Shown: in pieces, positions 37,690 to 43,306 of the stretch | How the letters are laid out: each line of letters opens with the position of its first letter | How positions within the stretch are numbered: the stretch's first letter is position 1 | NCBI RefSeq assembly: GCF_014395785.1 | Contig: NZ_CP060713.1 | Coordinates: 3,128,501-3,192,500 of the forward strand | Length of the DNA: 64,000 nucleotides | Direction of reading: 5' to 3' | From: Nocardioides mesophilus | Lineage (GTDB): Bacteria; Actinomycetota; Actinomycetes; Propionibacteriales; Nocardioidaceae | Notes under the pieces: model-generated | What the model saw: only the letters and a program-made list of their open reading frames with translations | Databases searched by the model: none | What the model was told of the DNA's origin: nothing | Program-made: the position numbers and the translations under genes

Positions 37690-38688
37690 TCAGTACGTCG
37701 GTGTCCAGACGTCCTCGGGGTGGCCGTGGCGCCGGCCTCCCGCCCTGGACAGCGCCGGCACCACGGCGATCGGGACCTCGGCGTGGTGCAGCACGGCCCG
37801 TGCCGTGGAACCGACATGGAAGCCGCCGAGGTGACGAGGCGACGTGTGCCGCCCGACCACGGCCAGCTGGGCGACGTGGCTCGCGTCCACCACGGCGTCC
37901 GTGGGGGTCTCGGCCACCGCCTCCACGGTGATCTCGAGCTCGGGGTAGCGCTCCCGCCACGGCGTGACCAGCGCCTCGAGCTGCTCGTCGTAGCGGGTGC
38001 GGCACTCGGTGATGTCGTCCGGGGACCAGGCGTAGAGCGACGGGACGTCCCAGGCCGACACGACCACCAGGGCGACTCCGAGCCGGTCCGCGCGCGCGGC
38101 CGCGAACTCCAGCACCGCCTCGTCGGTCCCGACGCTGAGGGTGTCGCCCTTGGGCCGCCCGGGCGGCGGCAGCTCCGGCATCTCCACGCCGACCACGATC
38201 GGGGCGGTCCGCTTGACCAGCTGGACCCAGTGCTCGGGCACCACGACCGTCGGGACGGGGGACCGGCCGGCGACGGCCACCGAGGTGCTGGTCGCCGTCA
38301 GGCGGTGGGCCTTGCTGAGCGCGCGACGGCCGATGACCAGCAGGTCCGCGGTCGCCGCGGTGTCGAGCAGCAGCTGGGTGGCGGTTCCGGCGTCGACCAC
38401 GATCTTGGTCTCGGCGCGGCCGATCTCCAGGCCGCGCAGCAGGTGTTCGATGTCCCTCTGGGCCTGCGCCTCGATCCGCGCCGGCGAGGCGGCCTCGGGC
38501 CGGACGGAGAGGGTGTTCAGGGTGGGGTAGGCGGTGACCAGCGTGAGGCTGCCGCCGGGGTGGTCGGCCTCCCGCGCCGCCCAGCTGACGGCGCTGGTGC
38601 TCCGGCCGTCGGGGTCGACGCCGACGACCACCCGACTGGCCGCGGTCTCGGCCCGCTGCTCCTGCGGGGTCCTCGTTGACATGCTCAT
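37690..38688 (-). CDS. Tandem-domain universal stress protein
   Basis: A 332-residue protein with two UspA domains (about 18-150 and 163-318). Nucleotide-binding-like glycines are seen in VIGRRALSKAHRLTATSTSVAV and VVGRHTSPRHLGGFHVGSTAR. A DosR-like box lies 98 bp upstream of ATG 38688. The flavin-binding gene follows after 77 bp on the same strand. Confidence 0.9.
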   Translation of the reverse strand: MSMSTRTPQEQRAETAASRVVVGVDPDGRSTSAVSWAAREADHPGGSLTLVTAYPTLNTLSVRPEAASPARIEAQAQRDIEHLLRGLEIGRAETKIVVDAGTATQLLLDTAATADLLVIGRRALSKAHRLTATSTSVAVAGRSPVPTVVVPEHWVQLVKRTAPIVVGVEMPELPPPGRPKGDTLSVGTDEAVLEFAAARADRLGVALVVVSAWDVPSLYAWSPDDITECRTRYDEQLEALVTPWRERYPELEITVEAVAETPTDAVVDASHVAQLAVVGRHTSPRHLGGFHVGSTARAVLHHAEVPIAVVPALSRAGGRRHGHPEDVWTPTY

Positions 38689-38808: not shown

Positions 38809-41248
<2,440 letters not shown>

Positions 41249-41588
41249 CCCACGACACCCCACCCCGCCCAACCCCACCCCGCCGAGTCGGCGCATCTGC
41301 AGCGCTGGACCCCGTCGAGTCGGCGCATCTGCAGCGGTGACGGACGGTCGGTGATGAACAGTCCGCGCGCCCAGCCGCTTCGCCTCGGAGCATGGGCTGC
41401 AGATGCGCCGACTCGGTAGCTGGGTGGGCTGCAGATGCGCCGACTCGGCAGCTGGGTGGGCTGCAGATGCGCCGACTCGGCGGCGCTGTGATCGACTTCG
41501 GGGGATTGGCCCGGGTTCGGGACCTGGGTCCTGGACGGCGGGCCCTCGGACCTGCCCGGACGGGCCGGTCGAGGACTACTGTCGTGCC
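41249..41588. other. 340-bp intergenic region between devS and devR
   Basis: No coding frame is supported here. It contains a C-rich stretch (41249-41280), the five-copy inverted repeat cluster described separately, and about 110 bp before devR without a clear DosR-like box. The repeats could form large hairpins in RNA, so termination or attenuation between the two genes is possible. Confidence 0.7.
41284..41479. repeat. Five copies of a 20-bp element, two forward and three inverted, 32-bp spacing
   Basis: CGAGTCGGCGCATCTGCAGC occurs at 41284-41303 and 41316-41335. Its exact reverse complement occurs at 41396-41415, 41428-41447 and 41460-41479. Within each arm the start-to-start distance is exactly 32 bp with 12-bp spacers; the two arms face each other across 60 bp. 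The inverted copies sit in a 32-bp tandem unit whose spacers differ at one base. The 13-bp palindrome CGCCGAGTCGGCG is part of the first copy. Confidence 0.95.
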
Positions 41589-42248
41589 ATGACTGCCCCT
41601 GCAGAGACGCGCAAGATCCGGGTCTTCCTGCTCGACGACCACGAGATCGTGCGACGGGGGCTCAAGGAGCTGCTGGAGAACCACGGCGACATCGAGGTGG
41701 TCGGTGAGTCCGGCCTGGCCATGGAGGCGACCCGTCGGATCCCGGCGCTGCGTCCGGACGTGGCGGTGCTCGACGGTCGGCTGCCGGACGGTTCCGGGAT
41801 CGACGTCTGCCGGGAGATCCGCTCGCAGAACCCGGAGATCGCCGCACTGATCCTCACCTCGTTCGACGACGACGAGGCACTGTTCTCCGCGATCATGGCC
41901 GGCGCCGCCGGCTACGTCCTCAAGCAGGTCCGCGGCAACGACCTCGTCGACACCGTACGGCGGGTCGCGGCCGGCCAGTCCACGCTGGACCCGGCGGTCA
42001 CGGAGCAGGTGCTCGACCGGCTGCGCAAGGGCCCCGAGGAGGACCCGGTGCTGGCGCCGCTGACCGCGCAGGAGCGCCGGATCCTCGAGCTGATCGGGGA
42101 GGGGATGACGAACCGGCAGATCGCCGAGTCGATGTACCTCGCCGAGAAGACGGTGAAGAACTACGTCAGCGCGATGCTCGCCAAGCTCGGCTTCGAGCGC
42201 CGCACCCAGGCCGCGGTGTTCGCCGCGAAGCACCTCAACCAGGGCTGA
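41589..42248 (+). CDS. devR: DevR/DosR-like NarL-family response regulator
   Basis: A 219-residue regulator. The receiver domain has D16/D17 and phospho-acceptor D62 in VLDGRLPDGSG, with K112 in GYVLKQ. The LuxR-type helix-turn-helix spans about 150-210 (LTAQERRILELIGEGMTNRQIA and AEKTVKNYVSAMLAKLGFERR). Those recognition-helix residues, including the KNYVS stretch, match mycobacterial DosR closely. It is the likely binder of the palindromic boxes in this window. No strong ribosome site is seen before ATG 41589. Confidence 0.9.
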   Translation: MTAPAETRKIRVFLLDDHEIVRRGLKELLENHGDIEVVGESGLAMEATRRIPALRPDVAVLDGRLPDGSGIDVCREIRSQNPEIAALILTSFDDDEALFSAIMAGAAGYVLKQVRGNDLVDTVRRVAAGQSTLDPAVTEQVLDRLRKGPEEDPVLAPLTAQERRILELIGEGMTNRQIAESMYLAEKTVKNYVSAMLAKLGFERRTQAAVFAAKHLNQG

Positions 42249-42343: not shown

Positions 42344-43306
42344 ATGGACCAGGCAGCCGGCACCCGACCGGGCCGGGCACGTCCTGTCGTGCTGGTCGGC
42401 GTGGACGGCACCGAGGACGGCGAGCGGGCGCTGCGGTACGCCGTCGCGGAGGCGCACCGGCGGGACGCCCGCCTGCGGATCGTGCACGCGCGCCAGCAGG
42501 TGGCACTCGTGGCACCACTGGCGCAGATGGTTCCGGAGCACCACGTGGCCGAGGTGGCACAGGGCATCGTCGAGCGTGCTGTGCAGACGGCCCGCGAGCT
42601 GGGCTACGCGGCACCGGACCTCGAGTGCCTGCAGGAGAGCGCGCCGGTCCACACCGCCCTTCTCGCGCACGCGCACGACGCGACCTGCGTGGTGCTCGGG
42701 CGACGCGGGTCCGCCGCCCGGCACCTGGCGACCGGCTCCACGACCTCGGCGGTGGCGGCTCTGTCGCCGGTCCCGACGATCGCCGTCCCTCCGGCGTGGC
42801 ACCAGGGTCCTCAGCACGGGCTGGTGGTGGTGGGCATCAACGGCGCCGGCGCCGAGGACGCCGACGGGGCCTGGACGGTGGTCCGGGCCGCGCTCGCGGA
42901 GGCCAGGTCGCGGCATGCGCGCCTCGACGTGGTGCATGCCTGGCGGCCCTTCAGCCAGTACGACGCCGTCCTGGACACGAAGGCCCTGGCCCGCACCTGG
43001 AGCCGGAGCGCCCAGGTGTCGCTGACCCGGTGGATGCACGACCACCAGCCGGGGCGTGACGTCGAATGGGTCGTGCAGCCGCGCTACCAGCGTCCGGCGG
43101 TCGCCCTGCACGAGGTGTCTCGGATCGCGGACCTGCTCGTGCTGGGCCGGCACGGACGCACCGGTCTGCTGGCTCTCTCGCCCGGATCGGTCACGCGCAC
43201 GTTGCTGCGGGTCAGCGAGTGCCCGGTGATGGTCGTGCCGCTGCCGTCCACGGCGGGGTCGGACGGTGCGGACGCGGACCCTGCCGCGTCCGTCGTACAT
43301 GCGTGA
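42344..43306 (+). CDS. Tandem-domain universal stress protein
   Basis: A 320-residue protein with two UspA domains (about 14-147 and 158-300). Binding-loop patterns VLGRRGSAARHLATGSTTSAV and VLGRHGRTGLLALSPGSVTRTLL are both kept, so it probably binds ATP. GGGAGG lies 6 bp before ATG 42344. It follows devR, as Rv3134c neighbours devR in Mycobacterium (there upstream). The flavodoxin gene follows after 12 bp. Confidence 0.92.
   Translation: MDQAAGTRPGRARPVVLVGVDGTEDGERALRYAVAEAHRRDARLRIVHARQQVALVAPLAQMVPEHHVAEVAQGIVERAVQTARELGYAAPDLECLQESAPVHTALLAHAHDATCVVLGRRGSAARHLATGSTTSAVAALSPVPTIAVPPAWHQGPQHGLVVVGINGAGAEDADGAWTVVRAALAEARSRHARLDVVHAWRPFSQYDAVLDTKALARTWSRSAQVSLTRWMHDHQPGRDVEWVVQPRYQRPAVALHEVSRIADLLVLGRHGRTGLLALSPGSVTRTLLRVSECPVMVVPLPSTAGSDGADADPAASVVHA

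Follow-up and report, generated by a model that had tools for sequence, protein, structure and literature searches.

A convergent repeat array between devS- and devR-like genes of Nocardioides mesophilus as a putative member of a dispersed repeat family with its own nuclease gene

The stretch of DNA analysed here (the window) comprises 64,000 nucleotides of the Nocardioides mesophilus chromosome (NZ_CP060713.1, positions 3,128,501 to 3,192,500) and carries on its forward strand a gene for a devS-like histidine kinase (39467-41248; GAF, GAF, HisKA_3 and HATPase_c domains) followed by one for a devR-like LuxR-type response regulator (41589-42248; Response_reg and GerE domains). Both genes are neighbours of the element described below and lie outside it; their domains agree, by gene type, with an earlier interpretation made from the letters alone (the sequence-only reading), which had placed an array of repeats between devS and devR. 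Universal stress protein genes are found on both sides of the pair (37690-38688 and 42389-43306), as they are in dormancy gene clusters.

The gap between the two genes holds five exact copies of a 20-mer, CGAGTCGGCGCATCTGCAGC, where 0.01 are expected (100 shuffles). Two of them, on the plus strand, form a left arm at 41284-41335 (copies at 41284-41303 and 41316-41335) that starts 35 nt past the devS stop codon, and three, on the minus strand, form a right arm at 41396-41479 (copies at 41396-41415, 41428-41447 and 41460-41479), with a period of exactly 32 bp in both. The number, strands and strict spacing of the copies are precisely as the sequence-only reading had described them. The 60-bp interval separating the convergent arms (41336-41395) contains no TCCACA/TGTGGA site. 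Whole 32-bp units of the right arm are 84-97% alike and the 31-nt units of the left arm 94%, and since this close likeness includes the spacers, local duplication is visible within both arms. The spacers, which had been called variable, are thus not simply so. As a folding check suggested at the time confirmed, RNA of both arms forms a long hairpin (-169.1 kcal/mol, z -7.27), as would be the case for any convergent arms, and an incidental effect of this hairpin on read-through is possible. Searches for another identity of the array returned no sigma-70 promoter, intrinsic terminator or Rfam family at this position, and RNA pairing inside the unit (GCTG of the spacer with CAGC) was rejected on reading the units, as the spacers vary without matching changes.

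In five congeneric genomes devR lies directly 3' of devS, with gaps of 10, 70, 71, 63 and 47 bp as against 340 bp in the window, and none of these five gaps contains the array. A sixth congener (G046) has only a distant devS relative (39%), with no devR in the fetched piece. From this comparison of sequences we infer that the array stretch was gained at the devS-devR gap relative to the congeners, probably as an insertion spanning 41249-41518, the right edge of which was set by eye at the palindrome GGACCTGGGTCC. This palindrome (41519-41531) lies between the array and devR and resembles a DosR/DevR box; it may be devR's own control site. Similar palindromes, GGACCTAGGTCC and GGGACCTTGGTCCC, were seen by eye almost directly 3' of the devS stop codon in two congeners (L210, L211). 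A different palindrome considered near devR, GGGACCNNNGGTCC, had no match there, the actual palindrome being shorter in the middle, and it is rarer in the window than chance would give.

The 20-mer belongs to a repeat family that extends over the whole genome (4.49 Mb, one contig), one of the possibilities that had been raised. With up to two mismatches there are 73 + 79 copies of CGAGTCGGCGCATCTGCAGC on the two strands, as compared to 0 + 0 for the reversed pattern, and 151 of the 152 fall in 23 places, the window included; copies beyond the window were gathered by fetching 23 stretches around the other clusters. Arms hold one to seven copies, mostly exactly 32 bp apart, with C-rich 12-nt spacers that are duplicated within arms; one array (L053, 4392163-4392286 of the genome) has the same 20-mer at a 52-bp period instead. 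Where arms on opposite strands adjoin, they are convergent in 16 cases and divergent in one, the distance between the arms of the 16 pairs ranging from 7 to 1040 bp, and single arms exist as well. The interiors are unlike one another in the loci compared (by eye, unaligned). With respect to genes, which at the array loci were called with a crude caller written for this analysis, 27 of 42 arms begin within 50 nt past the stop codon of a gene running in the same direction, and 3 of 42 lie within 50 nt of one running in the opposite direction. Of the gaps between genes in the fetched stretches, arrays are present in 12 of 49 that are convergent, in 12 of 134 that are co-directional and in 4 of 51 that are divergent; as these stretches were chosen for their arrays, only the relative rates are meaningful. 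One arm out of 43 lies inside a gene call.

Ten genes neighbouring arrays were named with NCBIfam and are of mixed function (NadA, PurB, FadD, PaaN, oxoglutarate dehydrogenase, a fructose PTS, a HelR-like ATPase and others). The array had been suggested to uncouple the expression of devS and devR, an idea that is not supported, given these mixed neighbours and the absence of the array from five congeneric pairs. What was found is instead the very outcome named beforehand as speaking against a regulatory array, namely a dispersed repeat without link to regulatory genes. These sequence comparisons point to the block in the devS-devR gap being a passenger and not a switch for the two genes.

The search of related genomes that had been proposed alongside showed that few relatives carry the repeat. 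Among 120 Nocardioidaceae genomes only three besides N. mesophilus itself have more than two copies of the window 20-mer: G046 with 78 (among those listed mostly ending in CATCCGCAGG), G092 with 134 (among those listed mostly ending in CATCTGCAGA) and G062 with seven copies of the window-type core. A degenerate two-unit pattern retrieved 63 stretches from the GTDB contigs; every record concerned has Nocardioides or Nocardioidaceae in its title, and the carriers are N. gansuensis and four MAGs. Two exact 20-mers used as a pattern gave no match in the public contig set, and the array pattern none in viral contigs.

At one of the chromosomal loci (L040), outside the window, the family encloses a gene. 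The convergent arms are 1040 bp apart there, and the sole gene called between them, P0001 (1679859-1680833 of the genome), ends with its stop codon 2 bp before the right arm. Among the array loci compared at this stage, just one further strong relative was found, that of N. gansuensis (L106; 42% identity across almost the full length), likewise between a plus-strand and a minus-strand arm. Pfam profiles detected AbiEi_4 in 24, MTES_1575 in 25 and DUF559 in 4 of 29 aligned homologues, P0001 itself lying over the cut-off for AbiEi_4 and under it for MTES_1575, which is described as a Vsr-family restriction endonuclease (PMC3710099). PADLOC models of AbiEi matched all four proteins scanned; in P0001, L106 and L127 the match reaches roughly residue 180, and in L132 it covers shorter stretches. 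In the alignment (A1), which comprises 29 of 31 homologues (L136 and the truncated L147 were left out; L136 and L134 have a stop codon inside the match, and L134 was kept), residues D246, E257, D259 and H264 are invariant in 29/29 and form a D..ExDG..H motif. Judged by these profiles and residues, P0001 probably combines an AbiEi-type DNA-binding half with a Vsr-type (MTES_1575/DUF559) nuclease half. Genes homologous to P0001 are present in 91 of the 120 Nocardioidaceae genomes (E <= 1e-15) and in 167 of 296 genomes of the class (E <= 1e-20). No NCBIfam or PHROGs model matched the four family members scanned, a PDB search gave nothing significant, and modelling the N. gansuensis homologue from its sequence alone gave an unusable structure (mean pLDDT 35.7). 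A phage or plasmid origin was considered and rejected, relatives of P0001 being absent from viral contigs and from phages (0 in each) and represented by one partial match (37%) among 72,556 plasmids.

To see how general the association of gene and arrays is, 51 Nocardioidaceae loci (30 best-in-genome matches, L106 and 20 further matches) were scored for two features, a tandem array on at least one side of the gene and an inverted likeness of one flank to the other. The threshold for each was the 99th percentile among 1000 control intervals, all taken from the N. mesophilus genome. Both features are present at 31 loci, a tandem array at 40, inverted likeness at 36, at least one of the two at 45 and neither at 6, while 0 of the 1000 control intervals have both. 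Inverted likeness has a median of 20 in matched flanks and of 1 in flanks of different loci; the 99th percentile of the mismatched pairs (46) lies above the matched median because some repeat families share GCCGAGTCGGC. In a survey of the class, 22 loci were scored, seven of them from the same family (L178-L185 were excluded, their genomes having been counted already), and of the 15 outside the family five show both features and 13 at least one; cores around TGATCATGCA recur there (L192, L193, L197, L199-L202). The gene-array association seen in these sequences is general, yet not universal. Most periods measure 31-33 bp and some 22 or 42-44 bp, all of them near whole helical turns; occasional periods of 17, 26 and 38 bp are away from such turns. 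Inspected by eye, many units contain GCCGAGTCGGC, a palindrome of 11 bp centred on a single base, and others (CGAGGCGTCGC, CGAGTTGTCGG) are without it, and at several loci the adjoining gene stops with a TGA that also opens the first unit.

We predicted that the core beside the gene would be dispersed in that genome and absent elsewhere, and this held in three of three genomes. In G011, which is without the window 20-mer, the core at the gene has 42 copies (0 in six other genomes); in G050 it has 124 (0 in five other genomes, 1 in one); and in G266, from another family, 93 (2 in a congener, 0 in four others). N. mesophilus, G092 and N. gansuensis agree as well, these having been found from the repeat side and not from the gene side. 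In G046 the core beside the gene (L125, of which only the left arm was seen) differs from the dispersed core at two positions, and G062, an assembly that is 86% complete, disagrees, its seven window-type copies being unlike the two units beside the truncated homologue L147. Convergence recurs too: among the listed copies of G266, neighbours on opposite strands and within 400 bp of each other converge 25 times and diverge seven times, the gaps in convergent pairs measuring 7-41 bp, and among the first 100 of the 124 copies of G050 they converge 12 times and never diverge. The dispersed arms of G011 look single, because its listed copies form same-strand runs at 32 bp with no opposite copy within 400 bp.

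A second feature of the gene is a short site near its start. Within -160 to +40 of the nominal start, TCCACA occurs in either orientation at 45 of 50 loci (L147, which begins at a contig end, was omitted), compared to 1 of 50 when the region 3' of the gene is taken and 76 of 2000 when windows are drawn at random. A G follows in 49 of 52 sites, giving the consensus GTTRTCCACAGG; the N. mesophilus copy (L124) is without the exact hexamer, and in L126 three TCCACA sites lie within repeat units. We take the TCCACA/TCCACAGG site upstream of the nuclease genes (L124-L153, L217-L236) to resemble a DnaA box, in which case the sequence would suggest that the gene is perhaps linked to replication initiation. 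Furthermore, 13 of the 51 loci (e.g., L106, L133, L141, L151) share the same neighbours, triosephosphate isomerase (tpiA), SecG and RbpA on one side and OpcA on the other. Arrays are present at 11 of these 13, with cores differing at least in the 3' half, and were not seen in L152 and L232. A common site with differing cores indicates that the gene usually keeps its place as the core is altered. Both orientations occur there (seven one way, six the other), so the gene may flip by recombination between its inverted arms.

The dispersal of the repeat, the convergence of its arms, the 32-bp period, the association of gene and arrays and the DnaA-box-like site at the gene start are all established at the level of sequence. 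As an explanation of the window block we favour, with somewhat better than even confidence, that it belongs, as a dispersed member without a gene, to a private repeat family for which P0001 is the cognate nuclease gene, in a relationship like that of REPINs and RAYTs. A nuclease, dispersed private cores that change, and gain between species together fit a repeat that is kept and spread by the nuclease, as has been proposed for REPINs with their RAYTs (PMC3116915). That the array binds a protein, as had also been suggested, is plausible because the gene for an AbiEi-type DNA-binding nuclease sits between two arms of the same repeat. One protein molecule would read each core of about 20 bp, which would be natural given that AbiEi is described as binding 23-bp repeats as monomers, in its own promoters (PMC7319586), and a period near three helical turns would put the molecules on one face of the DNA. 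The nuclease half would cut or nick at core sites and repair would copy arms to new places, with landing often at TGA-containing sites past stop codons, where harm is least, and with slippage lengthening the arms. The repeats would then live with the nuclease as REPINs do with a RAYT, the enzyme being unrelated. The window fits imperfectly in one respect, which counts against this explanation: its right arm has no minus-strand gene ahead of it. Other observations weigh against it too: six of the 51 loci have neither feature, L152 and L232 show no array at the shared site, G062 disagrees and G046 agrees in part, the dispersed arms of G011 look single, GCCGAGTCGGC is common to some families, periods of 17, 26 and 38 bp occur, P0001 is under the MTES_1575 cut-off, the PDB search gave nothing significant, and four of the five scored paralogues are without arrays.

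The likeness to REP/REPIN-RAYT systems lies in short repeats with many intergenic copies, often in inverted pairs, and in a cognate gene that is flanked by its repeat, each gene having one core (PMC3116915), as well as in the preference for 3' ends and in repeat termini from which a stop codon can be supplied (PMC3733652). The copies of G266, mostly simple inverted pairs with short gaps, come nearest to REPINs in build. The differences are in the gene, which here is AbiEi plus Vsr-type nuclease and not a RAYT, and in the units, which form tandem runs of fixed period and do not appear to make a hairpin alone. RAYT repeats are marked by a palindromic unit with a GTAG or CGTC tag; by eye, many units here hold the palindrome GCCGAGTCGGC and others do not. 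A RAYT as the cognate enzyme was sought and rejected, a search for the Y1 transposase (PF01797) giving 0 matches in the N. mesophilus genome and, as a control, matches in 5 of 14 known genomes. The N-terminal wing-helix half likens the protein to AbiEi antitoxins of type IV toxin-antitoxin systems, but here it is fused to a nuclease half, and at L040 no second gene that could be the AbiEii (DUF1814) partner toxin was called between the arms, the right neighbour being PaaN. The C-terminal half shares with Vsr-fold nucleases its match to MTES_1575 or DUF559. The EDxHD enzymes are kin to Vsr. They constitute a homing endonuclease family (PMC6083498), to which the invariant residues of apparently catalytic type are a further likeness, whereas no intron or intein context was seen for the gene here, which is paired with dispersed tandem arrays. 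In the literature searched, mainly open-access, no title or opening of an abstract described an association of repeats with such a nuclease, and the available text of PMC12306157 does not mention Nocardioides. We set the system apart as a new kind because the defining RAYT enzyme was sought in the N. mesophilus genome and not found and no other known kind fits; if all systems of a repeat and a cognate enzyme are counted as one kind, it belongs to that kind.

Part of the data, and best among the alternatives, would also be explained by a role at 3' ends, in which the arms act as terminators or 3'-UTR elements through the hairpin or a polar protein roadblock, with the nuclease as roadblock or RNA processor, and in which the window block would end devS transcripts ahead of devR. 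The position of 27 of 42 arms just past a stop codon in the sense direction vs 3 of 42 in the other, the higher rate of arrays in convergent gaps (12/49, against 12/134 co-directional and 4/51 divergent) and the long hairpin of the window arms (z -7.27) all speak for it. However, the cores are private to genomes and absent from the orthologous devS-devR gap of five congeners, nuclease residues of catalytic type are invariant, a consensus scan gave no terminator-like site and four array-bearing gaps are divergent, so that we regard such a role as unlikely. Less probable still is a DNA-binding network, i.e., an AbiEi-type regulator or chromosome organiser for which the arrays are selected operators or anchors, the nuclease half regulating copy number or being idle. 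The binding of AbiEi proteins to repeats in their own promoters (PMC7319586), the clustering of periods around whole helical turns (31-33, 22 and 42-44 bp) and the DnaA-box-like site by the gene start would suit it, but neither the change of copy numbers and cores between species of one genus, nor the invariant nuclease residues, nor ten named neighbour genes without a common function would be expected.

The convergence of the arms and the stretch inserted in the devS-devR gap relative to congeners would also be features of a MITE, a single mobile unit that has the arms as its terminal inverted repeats and depends on some transposase for its movement. Interiors that range from 7 to 1040 bp and are unlike between loci (by eye, unaligned), the existence of single arms and the absence of the Y1 transposase from the genome make this very improbable. 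We give the least weight of all, next to none, to neutral tandem repeats arising by chance duplication and slippage with no cognate protein: spacers are locally duplicated inside arms, as such an origin would have it, but one core is present at 23 places and recurs within the family in five public genomes or MAGs that bear names, and the three predictions from gene to dispersed core held. Neutral repeats are thus refuted as the full explanation, while slippage may lengthen arms.

Extending the favoured explanation, a repeat family with its cognate nuclease, beyond N. mesophilus is a more tentative step, for which we put our confidence slightly below even: a widespread class of actinobacterial repeats, mobile or domesticated, whose tandem binding arrays past stop codons would be spread and maintained by their own Vsr-fold nuclease. 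Its AbiEi-type half, which reads the DNA, would change fast, so that nearly every species has a new specificity, and the process would perhaps be timed by DnaA; the class would be an analogue of REPIN/RAYT with an independent origin. If true, dispersed repeats kept by an enzyme would have arisen at least twice, with unrelated enzymes, and the common actinobacterial AbiEi/MTES_1575 (DUF559-like) genes would be given a partner as well as a function open to testing. With its presumed binding site beside every such gene, many pairs of protein and DNA specificity could be read from genomes, and arrays of this type should not be taken for regulatory sites of the nearest gene.

The one arm inside a gene call is a single 3-mismatch copy in a hemerythrin-domain gene (L036, 1225582 of the genome), which is probably there by chance; it lies less than 1 kb from a PF18741-like gene (L122, 1226369-1226608). 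This gene is one of five distant PF18741-type paralogues in the genome that were scored (L117, L118, L120-L122), four of which are without arrays; a further candidate, L123, had no profile match. The exception is L117 (near 1470229), a paralogue of P0001 at 84.6 bits, which has repeats of about 50 bp on both sides with the core GCAACGAGCGGTCACCG, more direct than inverted.
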